Under the pieces are notes generated by a model. The model saw only the letters and a list, made by a program, of their open reading frames with translations, made no database searches and was not told the DNA's origin. From Gammaproteobacteria bacterium Ga0077554 (GTDB lineage Bacteria > Pseudomonadota > Gammaproteobacteria > Ga0077554 > Ga007554), in NCBI GenBank assembly GCA_001464585.1, contig LNFF01000008.1, positions 62,001 through 126,000 of the forward strand: DNA of 64,000 bases, written 5' to 3'. Both the position numbers and the translations under genes were made by a program. Of the stretch, positions 54,634 to 63,681 are shown piece after piece (the first letter of the stretch is position 1; each line of letters begins with the position of its first letter).

Positions 54634-54930
54634 ATGACAACATCTTTTGAACCTGTAATAGGTGAATGGTATAAAACGCCTGAAGGCGCAGTCTTTGAAG
54701 TAGTCGCCCTTAACGAACATGATGGCACGATTGATGTGCAATACGCGGATGGCACAGTCGGGGAGTTTGACGCCGAAACATGGGGAATGCTGGAGGTGAT
54801 GAGCACTGTAGCGCCCGCGGATGCGGCGGCTGAGTATGACAATATGGGCAGTGATGATTTGCATAGTATTGAAGAGTTGGACGGGATCCGTGAAGATTGG
54901 ACGCAAAATAGTTTTGATGATTTTGACTGA
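54634..54930 (+). CDS. DUF6763-like small acidic protein
   Basis: A 98-residue, strongly acidic protein. 'TTSFEPVIGEWYKTPEGAVF' and 'VVALNEHDGTIDVQYADGTV' form a small beta-barrel-like region (about 5-50), and 'EFDAETWGMLEV' matches the family. The rest is an acidic, flexible tail ending 'SFDDFD'. I recognise this as the DUF6763 family, of unknown function and found mainly in gammaproteobacteria. A very good ribosome site precedes it. It is monocistronic. Confidence 0.78.
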   Translation: MTTSFEPVIGEWYKTPEGAVFEVVALNEHDGTIDVQYADGTVGEFDAETWGMLEVMSTVAPADAAAEYDNMGSDDLHSIEELDGIREDWTQNSFDDFD

Positions 54931-55086
54931 ATAATACAGTGGTTTTCAAGATTTTTACGATGCCAAAAAGTATTTTGTAACAATTATGTAGCATAAATGC
55001 CTTAAAAGTTACTCTATCCTGTCATCTTATATTCATGGTCATGTGCGAAACTCCTGCTCATTCTGTGGGCAACATGAGATATCGCT

Positions 55087-57564
55087 ATGCGCCGTGCTCC
55101 TTACTCTTCCTTGCTGTGGCCACTGCCATCGACCACACGCACCGTGTCCGAAATACCACCCTGCCACCGTGCCGCACGTGCGGCGCTTGGAGTGAGTGAT
55201 GCATCCCCGGAAATGTATGCTGCATCGCTACCGTTTGCACCGGGTGATACCACTGCGGGATCTGAAAGTGAATTGCAAACTGCGGTGCTGGGTAACGAGC
55301 ACAATGTTGATCTGCCACTGCACATCCGCAACTCCAATTTTTTCGCTAATGTCATAAAGCACGCACTGGCGCGCGAGACGCCGAAGAAAGCCATCACCGC
55401 CATTGAAACTTATCTCACTGAGAACCCCAGCCAGGTCTGGGAAAACAGTTGGATACGCTTGCCGTTAAAACAGCTCAACTCGTTCGCGTTACGTGTGTTG
55501 AACGAGGATATGCGCGCCGATCGTTCTGATGCAGGTAGTGCGCCGCGCGACGACAAGCACAAGTTCTTTCTACGTGATGAATACGGTACGGAGCACGTGC
55601 GCCTGCCCATCAGCTATCTGCTCAAGTTGACGCTGGCACAGCTACTTGGCACCCGCGAGCGTGTGCCAAGCACTATCTACCACACCGCTTATCGCCTGAT
55701 GGACCACTACATCAACGACAACTGCTCTCCGGAAACATTGTCGTTTTATGTGACGACTCTGTCACCAGAACATGGACAGGGACACGCGGTCGCGCGCGAG
55801 ACGGCCAGGCGTTTCCTCCTGACACATCTGTTGTTGCAGTACGCTGATGAAGCTTTCGGCTTGCGCGCAACTGGTCAACAGGCGCTGGCATATTACTCGC
55901 CGCTGCCCCCGTTGCGCCAGAAACAGTTGAACAACTGCGTTTCTGACGCGCTGTATCGTGACCTGTTTTGCAGCCCGTGCCTGTCGGGTTGGGATCGCGG
56001 TGAGGAAAAATACCGCTATATGCGCCTGTGTCATGAAGTGTTGAGCCGCAGTCAGCTCAACGCCATCACCAAGCTACGCGATGCAGGCATCATCACCCGC
56101 AATCTGGTTGTGCTTCCCAACACCTCCAACGTGAGCCTGTCCAACAACGGCACGCACATCAGTCTGGGCAGTCTGCGTTTGAAACAGGCACTGGAAGATC
56201 CTGGATCCGGCTTCGGCGCGCGTCAGGAAAAGTATTTTTCCGATCTGGCCATCAAGATCGTGGAACATTTCCTGCCGCTGTTTGTGGGTACCTACACTGC
56301 CGCGCCGCAACGCTTGGCCTTCTCTGATTTCCATCCTGAAAAAGTGTTGGGCTTCTTGCCGCATCAACTGGACTTTACGCAACTGCGCATGCTATGGAGT
56401 GGCTGGAAGGAGAAGGCCGACCTGAAATTTTTCGGTTACCCGCTCACGCCGCTTGGCCCCACATGGCTCGACCGTACGTTGGCGCGCACGCTCAGTCTGG
56501 GCGGTGACTTTGTGCCTGATATGCGTCTGCTTGACTATTTGGTTGCGCTGGGCAGCACCGATCAGAGTACAGCATTAAACGGCATGCCTGGCAACAGTGA
56601 GCGTTTGAAACTGGATCTTGCCGACATGGGTGTGTTCGATGCGCGCATGTCGTTCTACATGCTGTATAAACCACGCGAACATGCGCAGGTGGGGTTTTCT
56701 GGTTTTGAGGGGCGTTACTACAGTCAGTTCGCGAGCTTTTCCGGCGACATGAGTCACGCCGTGCAAATGCAGGCGCTGCTCAGCGCGCTGGCCTATCACT
56801 ACATCCTGCAAGGCACCACGCAGCATGTTCATGTGCCCGACACGCGTACGGTAGAAAGCGAGCGACGCCAGATCATGTTCGCGACTGCCATGGGCTTGCC
56901 GCATTTCTACGTGCGCAAGGACACCGCCAACACGTTCCTGAAAGAGATACTCGCATTTACCACTAAGACACGTCCTAGCCGCCGTTACCGTGCCTATCTG
57001 AAAGTTGATCTTGCCGACTATCGTCTGGCACTGTTGAAAAAAATGACCGCCGACGCCCCGGCATTGATTGAAGCACATGGTGCACAGGCCACAGTTGACG
57101 ACGCACGTCGACGCATCGAATTTCCGGGCGAGAGTGCAGCAGGGCGGATAACCGCTGCCATCCTGGCGCAAACCGGCGCGAAATCGCCACAGCATTTGAG
57201 CGCGCCGGAGTTCAATCGCGCCGCTGAGGATTACTATCGTGGCCCGTTGCACGAAGGGTTTTTGCATGAGGCACTGGCATTCCTGCATGAAGATCTTCAT
57301 GGGCTGGAAACCGATCCATGTATTGATCCCGCCCATAGACAAGCGCTGCGTCACACGCTGGTGCATTCAGCGCCGACAGAATTCCTGAAAAATGTGGAAG
57401 GGGGTGTACTACGTGCCACGTTGCCGCTCCATGAATTGCAGACGCTCATCGATTTGTTATTGATCACCGTCGACCGTGATGCACAGCGTGCGCAGAAAAA
57501 TATTGACACTTCAACTAACGGGAGTACGCATGCTGCATCAGTATGTAGATCGGGCCACGGGTAA
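55087..57564 (+). CDS. Large protein of unknown function, first gene of the PSD/Lgt-like operon
   Basis: An 825-residue protein that I do not recognise. It has no membrane segment and no clear signal peptide. The first 60 residues are low-complexity; folded-looking, mostly helical sequence begins near 80 ('LHIRNSNFFANVIKHALARE'). Notable stretches are 'IISYLLKLTLAQLLG'-like helices near 180-200, 'VVLPNTSNVSLSNNGTHISL' near 340-360, 'FEGRYYSQFASFSGDMSHAV' near 540-560 and 'MFATAMGLPHFYVRKDTANT' near 598-617. The PSD gene starts 35 bases before its stop, so the two are translationally coupled. By context it should act with a phospholipid decarboxylase and a membrane acyl- or diacylglyceryl-transferase-like protein. 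The ATG at 55087 has a poor ribosome site, so the true start may be later. Confidence 0.75.
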   Translation: MRRAPYSSLLWPLPSTTRTVSEIPPCHRAARAALGVSDASPEMYAASLPFAPGDTTAGSESELQTAVLGNEHNVDLPLHIRNSNFFANVIKHALARETPKKAITAIETYLTENPSQVWENSWIRLPLKQLNSFALRVLNEDMRADRSDAGSAPRDDKHKFFLRDEYGTEHVRLPISYLLKLTLAQLLGTRERVPSTIYHTAYRLMDHYINDNCSPETLSFYVTTLSPEHGQGHAVARETARRFLLTHLLLQYADEAFGLRATGQQALAYYSPLPPLRQKQLNNCVSDALYRDLFCSPCLSGWDRGEEKYRYMRLCHEVLSRSQLNAITKLRDAGIITRNLVVLPNTSNVSLSNNGTHISLGSLRLKQALEDPGSGFGARQEKYFSDLAIKIVEHFLPLFVGTYTAAPQRLAFSDFHPEKVLGFLPHQLDFTQLRMLWSGWKEKADLKFFGYPLTPLGPTWLDRTLARTLSLGGDFVPDMRLLDYLVALGSTDQSTALNGMPGNSERLKLDLADMGVFDARMSFYMLYKPREHAQVGFSGFEGRYYSQFASFSGDMSHAVQMQALLSALAYHYILQGTTQHVHVPDTRTVESERRQIMFATAMGLPHFYVRKDTANTFLKEILAFTTKTRPSRRYRAYLKVDLADYRLALLKKMTADAPALIEAHGAQATVDDARRRIEFPGESAAGRITAAILAQTGAKSPQHLSAPEFNRAAEDYYRGPLHEGFLHEALAFLHEDLHGLETDPCIDPAHRQALRHTLVHSAPTEFLKNVEGGVLRATLPLHELQTLIDLLLITVDRDAQRAQKNIDTSTNGSTHAASVCRSGHG

Positions 57565-58549
57565 CGTGTGTACCGAAACCTTGTTCGCCGATCGTTGGGT
57601 GAACTTTCTTTATTCCACTGCGCGCGAGAATGCGCCAGCGCTGTTTCGCGCGCTCACCGGGCAACGCGTGTCGAGCTTGCTGAGCTATCTTAACTACGAC
57701 TTTGCGCCGGGTGCAAAGTTGTCTGGGCAGAGCCGATTTTTGCGCGATCTGGGCGTGAACTTGTCTGAGTGTGTGGACACCCCAGAAACACTCGACACGC
57801 CGCGCAAGATTTTTGAACGAAAAATCCGTTACTGGGACAGCCGTCCGATGCCGGGCGATCCGCGTGTGGTGGTGTCGCCAGCCGATGCCAAAGTTCTGAT
57901 GGGATCACTGGCGCAACACTCCGCGCTGTTCATCAAGGACAAGTTTTTCAGCTACGAAGAATTGCTGGGAACGGACAAGACGGATTGGCTGTGTGCCTTC
58001 GATAGCGGCGACTTTGCCGTGTTCCGACTCACGCCCGACAAATACCACTACAACCACACGCCAGTCGCGGGCGTGGTGCGCGATTTCTACGAGATTCCCG
58101 GGCATTACCATTCCTGCAATCCGAGTGTGGTGGTGTTGCTGGCGACACCTTATTCCAAGAACAAACGCACCGTGACCATTATCGACACCGACATACCCGG
58201 CGGAACGAATGTGGGCTTAGTGGCGATGATCGAAGTGGTGGCACTGATGATCGGTGAAGTTGTGCAAGCTTACAGTGCAGTTCAATATTACGAACCGCGT
58301 TCGATAGTTGTGGGTGATTTTCTGCGGCGTGGCGCGCCAAAAAGTTTATATCGTCCCGGATCAAGTACCGACGTGTTGCTGTTTCAAGCGGGGCGTATGG
58401 CATTCGATGCCGATTTGGTGCGCAATCTCAGCCGTCACGATGCAATCAGCCGTTTTTCTTACGGCTTTAGCGCACCGTTGGTGGAGACGGATATAGGGGT
58501 GCGTGCGTCGATTGGCCGTGCGGTGGATAGCGACACAGATTTTTGGTAA
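57530..58549 (+). CDS. Phosphatidylserine decarboxylase-family proenzyme
   Basis: A 339-residue member of the PSD family. The catalytic elements align: Asp119 in 'VVVSPADAKVLMG', His173 and His176 in 'TPDKYHYNHTPVAGVV', and the self-cleavage site Gly277-Ser278 in 'LYRPGSSTDVLLF', where Ser would become the pyruvoyl group. PSD converts phosphatidylserine to phosphatidylethanolamine. The N-terminal 85 residues are not typical of housekeeping Psd, and hydrophobic anchoring is weak. The ATG at 57530 has GGGAG upstream; the open frame extends 18 codons earlier. It is coupled to the unknown upstream gene and followed 18 bases later by an Lgt-like gene. This may be a second, specialised PSD. Confidence 0.88.
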   Translation: MLHQYVDRATGNVCTETLFADRWVNFLYSTARENAPALFRALTGQRVSSLLSYLNYDFAPGAKLSGQSRFLRDLGVNLSECVDTPETLDTPRKIFERKIRYWDSRPMPGDPRVVVSPADAKVLMGSLAQHSALFIKDKFFSYEELLGTDKTDWLCAFDSGDFAVFRLTPDKYHYNHTPVAGVVRDFYEIPGHYHSCNPSVVVLLATPYSKNKRTVTIIDTDIPGGTNVGLVAMIEVVALMIGEVVQAYSAVQYYEPRSIVVGDFLRRGAPKSLYRPGSSTDVLLFQAGRMAFDADLVRNLSRHDAISRFSYGFSAPLVETDIGVRASIGRAVDSDTDFW

Positions 58550-58567
58550 TAACCGGGAGGATTCATC

Positions 58568-59617
58568 ATGCTTGAAACATTGTTTATCATTGCACTTGCT
58601 GTGGTTTTGTTCGCATTGTTGAGTTGGGGCTTTCGCACCTTGCCGGAAGAACGTTGGCAAATTGTAGCGACGATACCGCTGATAAAGGAAAGCGGGCGCT
58701 GGCGCGGCCTCAATCTTACCTACTACGGTGTATTTTCCGCGACCGCACACGTGCTGTCGGTGGTGGTGTTTTTCATTTTATTTGCGGCGATTCGCATCCC
58801 TGCCACTGCTACACTGGCGCTGGCTGCGCTAACGCTTGCAGTGTGCGTACCGGCATCACGTTGGGTAGCACGCGTGGTCGAAAAGAAGCCCCACACTTTT
58901 TCCATGGCAGGCGCATTTTTCGTCGGCGTCGTAGTGTTCCCGCCATTCGTATGGTTGATCAATGTCACCCTAGGTCAGCATCTTGGTTTCACGGTCGACT
59001 ATCTGCCAGCCATGGCGGCTATCGTGGTGGCTTACGCTTTTGGTGAGGCGTTGGGCCGCCTGGCCTGTATCAGTTTCGGTTGCTGCTATGGCAGAGCACT
59101 GGATCAAACGCATCCACTGGCTCAGAAACTTTTCGCACGCTGGCATTTCATCTTTCATGGTGAAACCAAAAAGATCGCCTATGCCGCTGGTCTGGATGAA
59201 ACCAAGGTCATCCCGGTGCAAGGTCTAACCGCTGTACTGTACGTTCTGACCGGATTGTTGGGCATGGCGTTGTTTTTGGCGGGTCACTACGCGGCGAGTT
59301 TCATTACTACCATGCTGATTACGCAACTGTGGCGTGTTTTTTCGGAAACCCTGCGTGCTGATCACCGTGGCGGTGGTGTCTTGTCGGCCTATCAAATCAT
59401 GGCGCTTGTGGTATCGGCGTATGCTGTGGTGCTGAGTGTGTGGTTTGTTGACGCCGCGTCACCGCATGCAAACTTAGCCCTTGGATTGAGCGCGCTGTGG
59501 CATCCCGCTGTGCTGCTCATTCTGCAAATGCTATGGCTGGTGATTTTTATCTACACCGGACGTAGCGCCGTGACCGAAGCACATATGTCATTCCGTGTGT
59601 GCCGGGAAAAAATATGA
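58568..59617 (+). CDS. Prolipoprotein diacylglyceryl transferase (Lgt)-like membrane protein
   Basis: A 349-residue membrane protein with about eight hydrophobic segments. 'AFGEALGRLACISFGCCYGR' (157-176) aligns with the Lgt signature GRxGNFxNGExxG. The Arg is kept, but both Asn and the Glu are replaced, giving the Cys-rich GRxxCxxxGCCYG variant. 'VIPVQGLTAVLYVLTG' (214) corresponds to the Lgt HPxQLYE segment without the His, and 'LWRVFSETLRADHRGGG' (254) to the FRxxVEFxR segment. It therefore belongs to the Lgt superfamily but probably has a different substrate. The start has GGGAGG upstream, 18 bases after the PSD stop. It closes the operon. Confidence 0.78.
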   Translation: MLETLFIIALAVVLFALLSWGFRTLPEERWQIVATIPLIKESGRWRGLNLTYYGVFSATAHVLSVVVFFILFAAIRIPATATLALAALTLAVCVPASRWVARVVEKKPHTFSMAGAFFVGVVVFPPFVWLINVTLGQHLGFTVDYLPAMAAIVVAYAFGEALGRLACISFGCCYGRALDQTHPLAQKLFARWHFIFHGETKKIAYAAGLDETKVIPVQGLTAVLYVLTGLLGMALFLAGHYAASFITTMLITQLWRVFSETLRADHRGGGVLSAYQIMALVVSAYAVVLSVWFVDAASPHANLALGLSALWHPAVLLILQMLWLVIFIYTGRSAVTEAHMSFRVCREKI

Positions 59618-60371: not shown

Positions 60372-60959
60372 TTATGCGATATCTTCGGTAGAATTAATGT
60401 TTTTAAATGCCTGCGGCTGGTCTGAAAAATCAGCCAAAGCGAGGCGGCGGCTGCGCATCCAGAGTTCGGTTTTATTATGTCCACGTTGAATGGATTGCAG
60501 GATATCTTCAGCAAGATCACTTTGTAACAAGGCAACTACAGGCTGCATCCGCGTGCCATCATGCGCCACTGCAACTTCGGCGTGTGTTTGTGTGAGCGCG
60601 GCCGCCAGACGTGCTACCAGGTCATAGGGTAAATACGGTGAGTCGCAGGGCACTATCAGCACATAGTCAGTTTTTGCCGCGAGTAACGCACTGGCGATGC
60701 CTGCCAGTGGCCCGGCCTGACCGGGTGCGGTGTCCTGGATGACAGGATAGCCGAACGCGCTGTACTGGCCAAGATTACGGTTGGCATTAATAATGAGGGT
60801 GCCGACCTGCGGCGTGAGGATGTCAACCACATAAGTGATCAACGGCTTGCAGTGTAATGCTATTAAACCTTTGTCGGCACCGCCCATACGGCGTGCCTGG
60901 CCGCCTGCGAGAATGGCGCCAGTAATATTTTCGCGGGAAATTTTATGCAAGGAGTTCAT
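60372..60959 (-). CDS. mobA: Molybdenum cofactor guanylyltransferase MobA
   Basis: About 195 residues from the ATG at 60959. 'ITGAILAGGQARRMGGADKG' is the GTP-binding loop, with 'LPYDLVARLAAAL' and 'VPCDSPYLPYDL' the metal-site region and 'FKNINSTEDI' the MobA C-terminal 'N(I/V)NTPEDL' motif. It adds GMP to molybdopterin to make the guanine-dinucleotide form used by nitrate, DMSO and formate enzymes. The start overlaps moeA by 17 bases, so it is co-translated. The further upstream frame has no homology. Confidence 0.93.
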   Translation of the reverse strand: MNSLHKISRENITGAILAGGQARRMGGADKGLIALHCKPLITYVVDILTPQVGTLIINANRNLGQYSAFGYPVIQDTAPGQAGPLAGIASALLAAKTDYVLIVPCDSPYLPYDLVARLAAALTQTHAEVAVAHDGTRMQPVVALLQSDLAEDILQSIQRGHNKTELWMRSRRLALADFSDQPQAFKNINSTEDIA

Positions 60960-62220
60960 TAAACGGAATAAAGCTGACCATTTGTCCGCGTTGCACAGTG
61001 GCGTCTTCTGCAATACAGACCAAGCCATGTGCCCAACTGATAGACGTCAGTGCAGCGGAACCTTGATTGGGATAAATCACCGCGCCAGTAATGCCTGCGG
61101 CGTCAGTGTATAAGCGTGCGCGCAGGTATTCACGGCGATTGCCCTTTTGCAACCAATCAAAATCGGCACGTACCAAAAAAGATTGCGGTAAGGTTTTAAC
61201 CATTCCCTGGCAGCGCAGAATGAACGGGCGCGCAAACAGGCAGAAGGTGGCGAATACCGATACGGGATTACCGGGCAGGCCAAAAAAAGGTGTTTTATCA
61301 ACATGGCCAAAAGCCAGGGGTTTGCCCGGCTTCATGGCAATGCGCCACATTTCGAGGCGCCCCAGCGCTTCAACAGTGGCTTTGACGTGATCTTCATCGC
61401 CCACTGAGACGCCGCCACTGGTAATGATGAGATCGCTTTGCTGTGCGGCAGCCGCCAATACCGTGCGAGTGGCGGCAAGGTTATCAGGCACGATGCCAAA
61501 ATCAATTATCTCACAGTGCAGTGTATGCAGCAGACTTGTCAGAGTATAGCGGTTGGCGTTGTAGATTTTCCCGGGTGCCAAGGGTGTATTGGGTTCGGTC
61601 AGTTCATCACCGGTACAGAAAATGGCGACACGCAAGGGGCGATATACCGGTAATTGCGCAACGCCAATAGACGCTGCAAGTCCCAAATCTTGCGGGCGCA
61701 GTTTTATGCCTGCATCAAGAATGGTAACGCCTGATTTAATGTCTTCACCGCGTGCGCGGATATTCTGCCCGGCGTGCAGTGGGGGCGAAATAATGACGGC
61801 ATCGCCCTCCACGCGGCAATGTTCCTGCATCACCACGCAATCTGCACCAGGGGGTATCGGTGCGCCGGTAAAAATACGTGCGGCTGTGCCAGGGGTCAGC
61901 GCCTGGCTGGTTTGTCCGGCGGCAATGCGTTGTGAAATACGCAGTCGTGTGTCGCTGTCAGCAGAAAGATCATCACTGGCAAGTGCATAACCATCCATGG
62001 CGCTGTTGTCAGCGGGAGGTACATTAAGGGTAGATATTTGTGGGCGCGCCAGGACGCGGCCTAGTGCGCGGGAAATCTCAAGATCTTCAATGTCAGTAAG
62101 AGGTGCAGCTTTGCTTAATATAAATGCCAGAGCATCATCTACGCTCATGAGTTTCTGGGCAGGGTTGGCTTGCGCTGCGTTACTTCCTTGTGCGTTCGCG
62201 TAACAGGTATCTTTGGTCAA
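60943..62220 (-). CDS. moeA: Molybdopterin molybdenumtransferase MoeA
   Basis: A 425-residue enzyme. 'SRALGRVLARPQISTLNVPP' with 'DNSAMDGYALASDDL' near 70-82, 'AARIFTGAPIPPGADCVVMQ', the MPT-binding domain with 'LIITSGGVSVGDEDHVKATV' near 265-285, and 'KPGKPLAFGHVDKTPFFGLP' are all conserved. It inserts molybdate into adenylylated molybdopterin. The first 25 residues are an unusual Asn/Ala-rich stretch without homology; the ATG at 62145 ('MSVDDALAFI') may be an alternative start. moaB precedes it by 4 bases. Confidence 0.94.
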   Translation of the reverse strand: MTKDTCYANAQGSNAAQANPAQKLMSVDDALAFILSKAAPLTDIEDLEISRALGRVLARPQISTLNVPPADNSAMDGYALASDDLSADSDTRLRISQRIAAGQTSQALTPGTAARIFTGAPIPPGADCVVMQEHCRVEGDAVIISPPLHAGQNIRARGEDIKSGVTILDAGIKLRPQDLGLAASIGVAQLPVYRPLRVAIFCTGDELTEPNTPLAPGKIYNANRYTLTSLLHTLHCEIIDFGIVPDNLAATRTVLAAAAQQSDLIITSGGVSVGDEDHVKATVEALGRLEMWRIAMKPGKPLAFGHVDKTPFFGLPGNPVSVFATFCLFARPFILRCQGMVKTLPQSFLVRADFDWLQKGNRREYLRARLYTDAAGITGAVIYPNQGSAALTSISWAHGLVCIAEDATVQRGQMVSFIPFNELLA

Positions 62221-62224
62221 TGCA

Positions 62225-62755
62225 TTATCCTTTCTTGAGCCGTGGCATCAGCTCAACAAAATTGCAAGGCCCATGGCGGTTGTCAAGCTGATATTTTAGA
62301 ATGTGATTCCAGGCGGTGTGACATGCGTTGGTAGATCCTGGCATGCAGAATATGAAAGTACCATTAGCGATTCCCGCCAGGGCGCGTGATTGCAAGGCCG
62401 AGGTCTGCACTTCCTGATAAGACACGCTGCGAAACATCTCGCCAAAACCGGTTATTTCCTTATCCAGTAACGGTAAAATTGCTTCGGGGGTCACATCGCG
62501 CCAGGTAATCCCAGTGCCACCCGTAATCAAGACCACGTCAACAGCAGGCGCTACGATCCAGCGTGACACCACAGCGCGAATTTGATAAATATCATCAGCA
62601 CTAATGATTTTTTCGACCAAGCGATGACCCGCGCCCGTCAGGCACTCTGCCAAGGCTTTTCCCGAGGTATCAGTTTCTTCAGTGCGCGTGTCAGAAACAG
62701 TTAACACGGCGATATTAACAGGTATGAATTCCTGATTTTTAGCGGGTTTGGGCAT
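62225..62755 (-). CDS. moaB: Molybdenum cofactor biosynthesis protein MoaB
   Basis: A 176-residue MogA/MoaB-fold protein. 'IAVLTVSDTRTEETDTSGKA' near 14-33 and 'VDVVLITGGTGITWRDVTPE' near 72-91 are the molybdopterin-binding loops, with 'MPGSTNACHTAWNHILKYQL' near 138-157. It adenylylates molybdopterin or has a related role before MoeA. It is first of the moaB-moeA-mobA run. Divergent from it, across 347 bases, is the sigma-54-controlled NasT-like gene. Confidence 0.93.
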   Translation of the reverse strand: MPKPAKNQEFIPVNIAVLTVSDTRTEETDTSGKALAECLTGAGHRLVEKIISADDIYQIRAVVSRWIVAPAVDVVLITGGTGITWRDVTPEAILPLLDKEITGFGEMFRSVSYQEVQTSALQSRALAGIANGTFIFCMPGSTNACHTAWNHILKYQLDNRHGPCNFVELMPRLKKG

Positions 62756-63102: not shown

Positions 63103-63681
63103 ATGAAGCTGCGTATCATGTTAGTTGATGCTGATCCGCAGCGGATGGACTTGCTGATGAATACGCTACAAGAGGCTGGGCACTGGGTTGCAATGTGTGG
63201 CGATGAGACGGGAAATCTTTGTGAACACGTACGGGAAATTCAACCTGATGTGATTATTATCGGTACGGATTCACCTACACGCGACACATTGGAGCATTTG
63301 TGTGTGATTGACCGTGATGAACCCCGTCCCGTAGTGATGTTTACCCATGATAACGATACACAGAAAATGCGTGCAGCGCTACGGGCTGGTGTCAGTGCCT
63401 ATATCGTGGATGGGCTGACTGCGTCACGTGTGCAATCTATTATTGATATCGCAATTGCGCGTTTTTCGGAATATCAAATCCTTAAAAATGAATTGGAAAA
63501 AGCGACAACTACACTTGCTGAACGAAAACAGATTGAGCGCGCCAAAGGTTTTGTAATGAAGCAGCGTGGTTGCAGTGAAGATGAGGCATATCGATTAATG
63601 CGCAAAATGGCCATGAATAGCAACAAAAAATTGGTTGAAATTTCAGATAATATTAATACGGCAGCCGATATTTTTTCGTGA
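63103..63681 (+). CDS. nasT: NasT-like ANTAR-domain antitermination regulator
   Basis: A 192-residue protein with a receiver-like N-domain and a C-terminal ANTAR domain near 130-190 ('LAERKQIERAKGFVMKQRGC', 'SEDEAYRLMRKMAMNSNKKL'). It closely resembles NasT: 'IQPDVIIIGTDSPTRD' aligns with NasT PDVxLIDTESPGRD, and 'RPVVMFTHDND' and 'GVSAYIVDGL' follow. The residue at the receiver phosphorylation site is Gly54 instead of Asp. NasT works by RNA binding and release from its inhibitor NasS, not phosphorylation, so this may be tolerated. No nasS is adjacent. The gene is downstream of a sigma-54 promoter and upstream of cyanase. Confidence 0.87.
   Translation: MKLRIMLVDADPQRMDLLMNTLQEAGHWVAMCGDETGNLCEHVREIQPDVIIIGTDSPTRDTLEHLCVIDRDEPRPVVMFTHDNDTQKMRAALRAGVSAYIVDGLTASRVQSIIDIAIARFSEYQILKNELEKATTTLAERKQIERAKGFVMKQRGCSEDEAYRLMRKMAMNSNKKLVEISDNINTAADIFS

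Follow-up and report, generated by a model that had tools for sequence, protein, structure and literature searches.

Lgt transfers diacylglycerol from phosphatidylglycerol to the thiol of a cysteine, PSD decarboxylates an amino acid that is linked to a lipid and has a free amine, and glutamate-cysteine ligase (GCS) forms amides at the amine of an amino acid. Lipids free of phosphorus are found in anoxic environments poor in this element, and the described pathways closest to the one proposed below are the phosphate-regulated ones of ornithine lipids (OlsBA/OlsF), betaine lipids (BtaA) and glycolipids (Agt). These resemble it in proposed role and in association with phosphate genes but share none of its enzymes; the present cassette would instead draw on the chemistry of Lgt, PSD and a GCS-like enzyme. 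A sulfate-reducing desulfovibrio replaces phospholipids under phosphate limitation, and some phosphorus-free lipids are known to be made by sulfate-reducing relatives (PMC5193443). The three genes considered here form a strictly conserved, undescribed system of three enzymes, which is most likely a lipid pathway linked to phosphate stress. All three enzymes are members, or probable members, of known superfamilies. Their combination and the family of the large protein are new with respect to the libraries and papers searched, and a search of the literature found no paper joining these families or using a GCCYG motif in this sense.

The cassette was analysed in its window, by which we mean the whole stretch of 64,000 nucleotides, and its features are collected in Table 1. 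The initial annotation had described a tightly coupled operon, with an overlap of 35 bases between the first gene and the PSD gene and a gap of 18 bases before the Lgt-like gene, and both figures agree with the ORF coordinates. The overlap with the large-protein gene arises because the PSD starts at the ATG (MLHQY...) that is conserved in homologues and preceded by a ribosome-binding-like GGGAG, rather than in the longer GTG frame.

Table 1. Features of the cassette in the window
Feature	Position	Strand	Remarks	Basis
Large-protein gene	55087-57564	+	ATG start, 825 aa	ORF
PSD-family pyruvoyl decarboxylase proenzyme	57530-58549	+	longer GTG frame from 57476	PF02666
Predicted PSD self-cleavage site	G295-S296, longer-frame numbering	+		GS(S/T) site, triad conservation
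Lgt-like integral membrane protein	58568-59617	+	349 aa, invariant GRxxCxSxGCCYG	PF01790, model, conservation
Pho-box-like pair CTGTCAT-CTTA-TATTCAT	55019-55036	+	68-51 bases before first start; weak, not significant alone	

The three-gene operon is a real, strictly co-conserved cassette. Co-conservation had been named as a check on the initial reading, and profile searches with the three proteins of regions extracted around 58 loci, from Desulfobacterota plus a few Gammaproteobacteria, recovered the order large protein, PSD, Lgt-like protein on one strand in 58 of 58, the sole absence of the Lgt-like gene being at L014, where the contig ends. Amino-acid identities among these loci fall to ~40%, and the shared order and strand are far beyond chance. 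Order and strand are kept even at the four loci where extra genes stand between the members (L008, L090, L088 and L104). The distances of the three genes co-vary (r 0.66-0.74), and in each of the three gene trees the copies from Gammaproteobacteria group as a single clade. No fourth conserved gene was found among the cassette neighbours, which vary, and no match was found that would place the cassette on a plasmid.

A genome scan with the large protein returned 17 relatives, mostly Desulfobacterota (Geomonas, Citrifermentans, Geobacteraceae and Desulfobulbaceae). By profile search it is present in ~44 of 395 genomes of that phylum and in 3 of 369 Gammaproteobacteria, the window's own genome included. 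It is absent from one of two genomes of the same genus and from all five of the same family that were checked, so its distribution is patchy, as would result if the unit were transferred horizontally. At one locus, in a Geobacter sp. MAG (L020:7296-11902), the large and Lgt-like genes each lie in two frames, from either decay of the cassette or sequencing errors. Two further Desulfobacterota genomes retain short remains of the large gene (G391:C247:6258-6434 and G756:C1:3048051-3048146), possible traces of a lost cassette. A 390-aa match at L025 was rejected as a chance helical match to what looks, by eye, like a TPR-repeat protein.

The large protein had been said to match nothing known, and no Pfam, NCBIfam or PDB sequence match was indeed obtained. 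Nor did it turn out to belong to a known family with an unrelated role, an outcome that the initial annotation had named as fatal to its reading. The protein is soluble by hydropathy, and its AlphaFold model has a mean pLDDT of 74 and a pTM of 0.79, with a central region of low confidence. When this model was compared with the PDB by Foldseek, no match reached E<0.001, and the sole coherent group was glutamate-cysteine ligase (best E 0.3, probability up to 0.57; unrelated long matches had probabilities of at most 0.06). This group consisted of the E. coli enzyme (1v4g, 2d32 and 2d33, target TM ~0.4), that of Francisella (3nzt) and the bifunctional Pasteurella protein (3ln7); a viral fold library gave probabilities of at most 0.08 throughout.

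The motifs of the family point the same way. G58-x-E60-x-E62, D211..E216, H357 and E541-x-R543 are invariant in 57 of 57 sequences, and GshA homologues carry G-x-E-x-E, D..E, H and E-x-R in the same order, a correspondence that is one of motif order and not of superposition. In GshA these are residues that we take to form the metal and nucleotide sites, and E60, E62, D211, E216, H357 and E541, with R543, are candidate metal ligands of the large protein. The likeness to the GshA (PF04262)/GCS2 superfamily lies in the weak but selective fold resemblance of the model and the ordered invariant motifs, and it is on these that we consider the protein to be, probably, a divergent GCS-like ATP-dependent carboxylate-amine ligase. 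The differences are considerable: GshA has ~520 aa against 825, and the large protein has an extra helical C-terminal region and a large invariant insert with C298/W302/C315/H316. Sequence profiles detect no similarity to the GshA/GCS2 families: hmmscan of 16 family members against Pfam at E<=10 gave no significant similarity to GCS, and hhalign against profiles derived from PF04262 and PF04107 gave no support, although some of the GCS2 rows may be wrong ORFs. Neither GshA (PF04262) nor GCS2 (PF04107) was found in the window genome (G000). The protein had been suggested to be a substrate, a synthase or a scaffold. An enzyme is now the more likely of these, and a substrate or scaffold the less likely, because there is no transmembrane segment, 138 positions are at least 98% identical over 57 sequences, and the invariant set resembles metal ligands.

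The second protein matches PF02666 at 2.5e-34 (119.2 bits against a cut-off of 22), and the claim that all catalytic residues are present holds for the self-cleavage triad: D90, H144 and S254 of the E. coli enzyme (PMC7952604) correspond to D137, H191 and S296 in longer-frame numbering. D137 and H191 are found in 57 of 57 sequences, G295 in 56 with one gap, and S296 in 54. What the protein shares with Psd is therefore the PF02666 domain, the D-H-S triad and the GS(S/T) cleavage site; what sets it apart is an atypical N-terminus, the replacement of Tyr137 by Arg and the lack of conservation of Asp142. Every NCBIfam PSD equivalog remains below its cut-off (best 129 against 371 bits). The best solved relatives by profile are true lipid PSDs, and PSD-fold tryptophan decarboxylases are also found. 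In E. coli PSD the phosphate is contacted by Y137, S166 and the V167 backbone, and arginine at the Tyr137 position is a variant found in 15% of true PSDs (PMC7952604). The cassette protein has Arg184 in place of Tyr137, and Ser166 is retained as S213, so the substrate may still carry a phosphate, and this possibility is the weakest point of the phosphorus-free lipid model set out below.

The third protein scores 25.0 bits against PF01790 (LGT), just over the cut-off of 24.9, and its AlphaFold model (pLDDT 88, pTM 0.88) is that of an Lgt fold: Foldseek matched it to E. coli Lgt (5azb) with E 7e-4 and probability 1.00, the next match having 0.16 and no other reaching E<0.001. The GRLACISFGCCYG motif reported for this protein was recovered, with its Cys/Gly/Tyr core invariant across relatives and C167, C172 and C173 present in 56 of 56, and the histidine of HPxQLYE is absent as stated, a non-His residue occupying its place (VIPVQ). 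By a motif alignment made by eye, the likeness to Lgt extends from the fold to the donor site, Y26, R143, G154, R239 and E243 of the E. coli enzyme being Y53, R164, G175, R256 and E260 here, whereas H103, N146 and E151 are replaced in the aligned members and the triple-Cys GCCYG motif is found instead. In E. coli Lgt, R143 and Y26 contact the phospholipid donor, H103 is essential with a proposed role on the peptide side, and E151 is also essential (PMC4728403). The protein is not filed as a prolipoprotein Lgt because of these three replacements. It may still transfer diacylglycerol, and the residue pattern fits a protein in which handling of the diacylglycerol donor has been kept and the acceptor changed. 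An altered donor is also possible, because E151 binds the donor too in Lgt, and without N146 and E151 the reaction itself could differ.

Both of these proteins are paralogues, because a housekeeping PSD and a canonical Lgt are encoded separately in the window genome. The existence of a second psd had been raised as a question, and one is present, scoring better than the cassette PSD; a separate PSD is likewise found in 17 of 17 relatives checked.

A link between the cassette and genes of phosphate starvation was not foreseen in the earlier reading. Genes for the Pst transporter or PhoU are found at most ~8 kb from 13 of 58 cassette loci against 1 of 40 control regions (Fisher p=0.004), a comparison in which the cut-offs for scores were chosen after an initial inspection, L014 and L015 are close relatives, and the controls, 618 kb against 930 kb of cassette regions, come from elsewhere in mainly the same genomes. 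Directly adjacent genes encode, among others, two alkaline phosphatases and four regulators that match the PhoB equivalog. In Citrifermentans bremense (L008) the operon itself takes in genes for PhoU, a PhoB-type regulator and a histidine kinase, all in its own orientation. Counting against the link, about three-quarters of the loci, the window's among them, have no phosphate-uptake gene nearby. A scan for Pho boxes across the loci found some good sites (L014, L106, L016 and the window), but over the family the signal is weak, at most suggestive, with no strand bias (p=0.16). A neighbour count for NCBIfam PhnC was dropped, having been inflated by cross-hits of generic ABC ATPases.

Genes for known phosphorus-free lipids were also compared. 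OlsF-like genes occur in six cassette genomes and in four of these are at most ~18 kb from the cassette; the architecture of acyltransferase plus OlsB domain was checked in L100 and elsewhere judged by ORF length. The L100 gene (L100:3140-5041), an acyltransferase/GNAT fusion of the ornithine lipid synthase type, lies a few genes upstream of the cassette. OlsB-domain genes are found in ~11 of 40 cassette genomes against 4 of 39 others, and BtaA-type DUF3419 is nearly absent from both. The idea that the cassette replaces ornithine- or betaine-lipid genes was discarded, as no clean exclusion was seen.

Any account of function starts from what is directly established, namely the obligate co-occurrence and order, the paralogy, the Lgt fold class, the PSD self-cleavage residues and the enrichment of phosphate genes nearby. 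The dedicated membrane-lipid pathway suggested at the outset stands as the leading model, its lipid chemistry being inferred. We tentatively favour a three-enzyme pathway, active in the phosphate-stress response, to an amino-acid-derived diacylglycerol lipid or an aminoacylated aminolipid, and regard it as quite possible, at somewhat less than an even chance. The Lgt-like enzyme would move the diacylglyceryl group of phosphatidylglycerol onto a small amino acid as acceptor and release glycerol-1-phosphate, the return of which from the donor would suit phosphate saving. Cysteine is the natural guess for the acceptor, being the residue whose thiol Lgt lipidates and the amino acid that GCS ligates. 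The pyruvoyl group of the PSD paralogue would then take the alpha-carboxylate off the lipid amino acid to leave a phosphate-free, PE-like head group, to the amine of which the large soluble protein would ligate a carboxylate, such as glutamate, at the expense of ATP. Ligation is placed after decarboxylation because a PSD-type Schiff base needs a free amine; the substrates, this order of transfer, decarboxylation and ligation, and the product are guesses. Flipping would be needed, because Lgt acts at the periplasmic face and ATP-dependent ligation is cytosolic. The most specific version, in which the Lgt paralogue acts on the free amino acid to give S-diacylglyceryl-cysteine from phosphatidylglycerol, PSD decarboxylates it and a GCS-like cap is optional, would yield a phosphorus-free thioether aminolipid; in this exact form it is decidedly improbable.

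The same proteins can be read in other ways. The PSD, with its catalytic residues all kept and R184 and S213 as plausible phosphate contacts, might supply PE or an analogue of it locally, and the ligase-like large protein, which could act on an amine, might add an amino acid to give N-aminoacyl-PE, the Lgt-like protein using this lipid or recycling diacylglycerol. Every genome checked already has a housekeeping PSD to make PE, however, and the phosphate-stress neighbours speak against a phosphorus-rich product; we consider this reading unlikely. The solubility of the large protein and the PSD-fold tryptophan decarboxylases among the solved relatives would suit a soluble small molecule, a free amino acid or dipeptide being decarboxylated in the manner of PsiD and joined to a second unit by the ligase, with the Lgt-like protein anchoring the product in the membrane or exporting it. 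This, too, we think unlikely, for true lipid PSDs are the best solved relatives, the lipid-donor residues are kept in the Lgt-like protein, and no transporter or regulator is constant beside the cassette. The Lgt fold and family score also bring to mind protein modification of the lipoprotein type, with the Lgt-like enzyme lipidating a protein and the ligase and decarboxylase acting on its peptide end. The aligned members lack the essential H103 of the peptide site, however, no gene for a substrate protein is conserved with the cassette, and the window genome has its canonical Lgt, all of which make such a role very improbable.

As a strictly conserved set of lipoprotein-, PE- and probable glutathione-type enzymes that often lies near phosphate genes, the cassette suggests that Geomonas, Citrifermentans and similar soil and sediment bacteria make a new lipid or conjugate. 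It also offers an experimental handle on a protein family outside all Pfam and NCBIfam models, and on why an Lgt paralogue swaps His, Asn and Glu for three cysteines. Were the thioether aminolipid to prove true, it would represent a new chemical route to phosphate-saving membranes, drawn from enzymes of lipoprotein, PE and glutathione synthesis.

In the window, a small DUF6763 protein is encoded directly upstream of the cassette (54634-54930), outside the conserved unit. Downstream, on the minus strand at 60372-62755, are likely molybdenum cofactor genes (MobA-, MoeA- and MogA-like by eye), and these are followed at 63103-63681 by an ANTAR-type response regulator.
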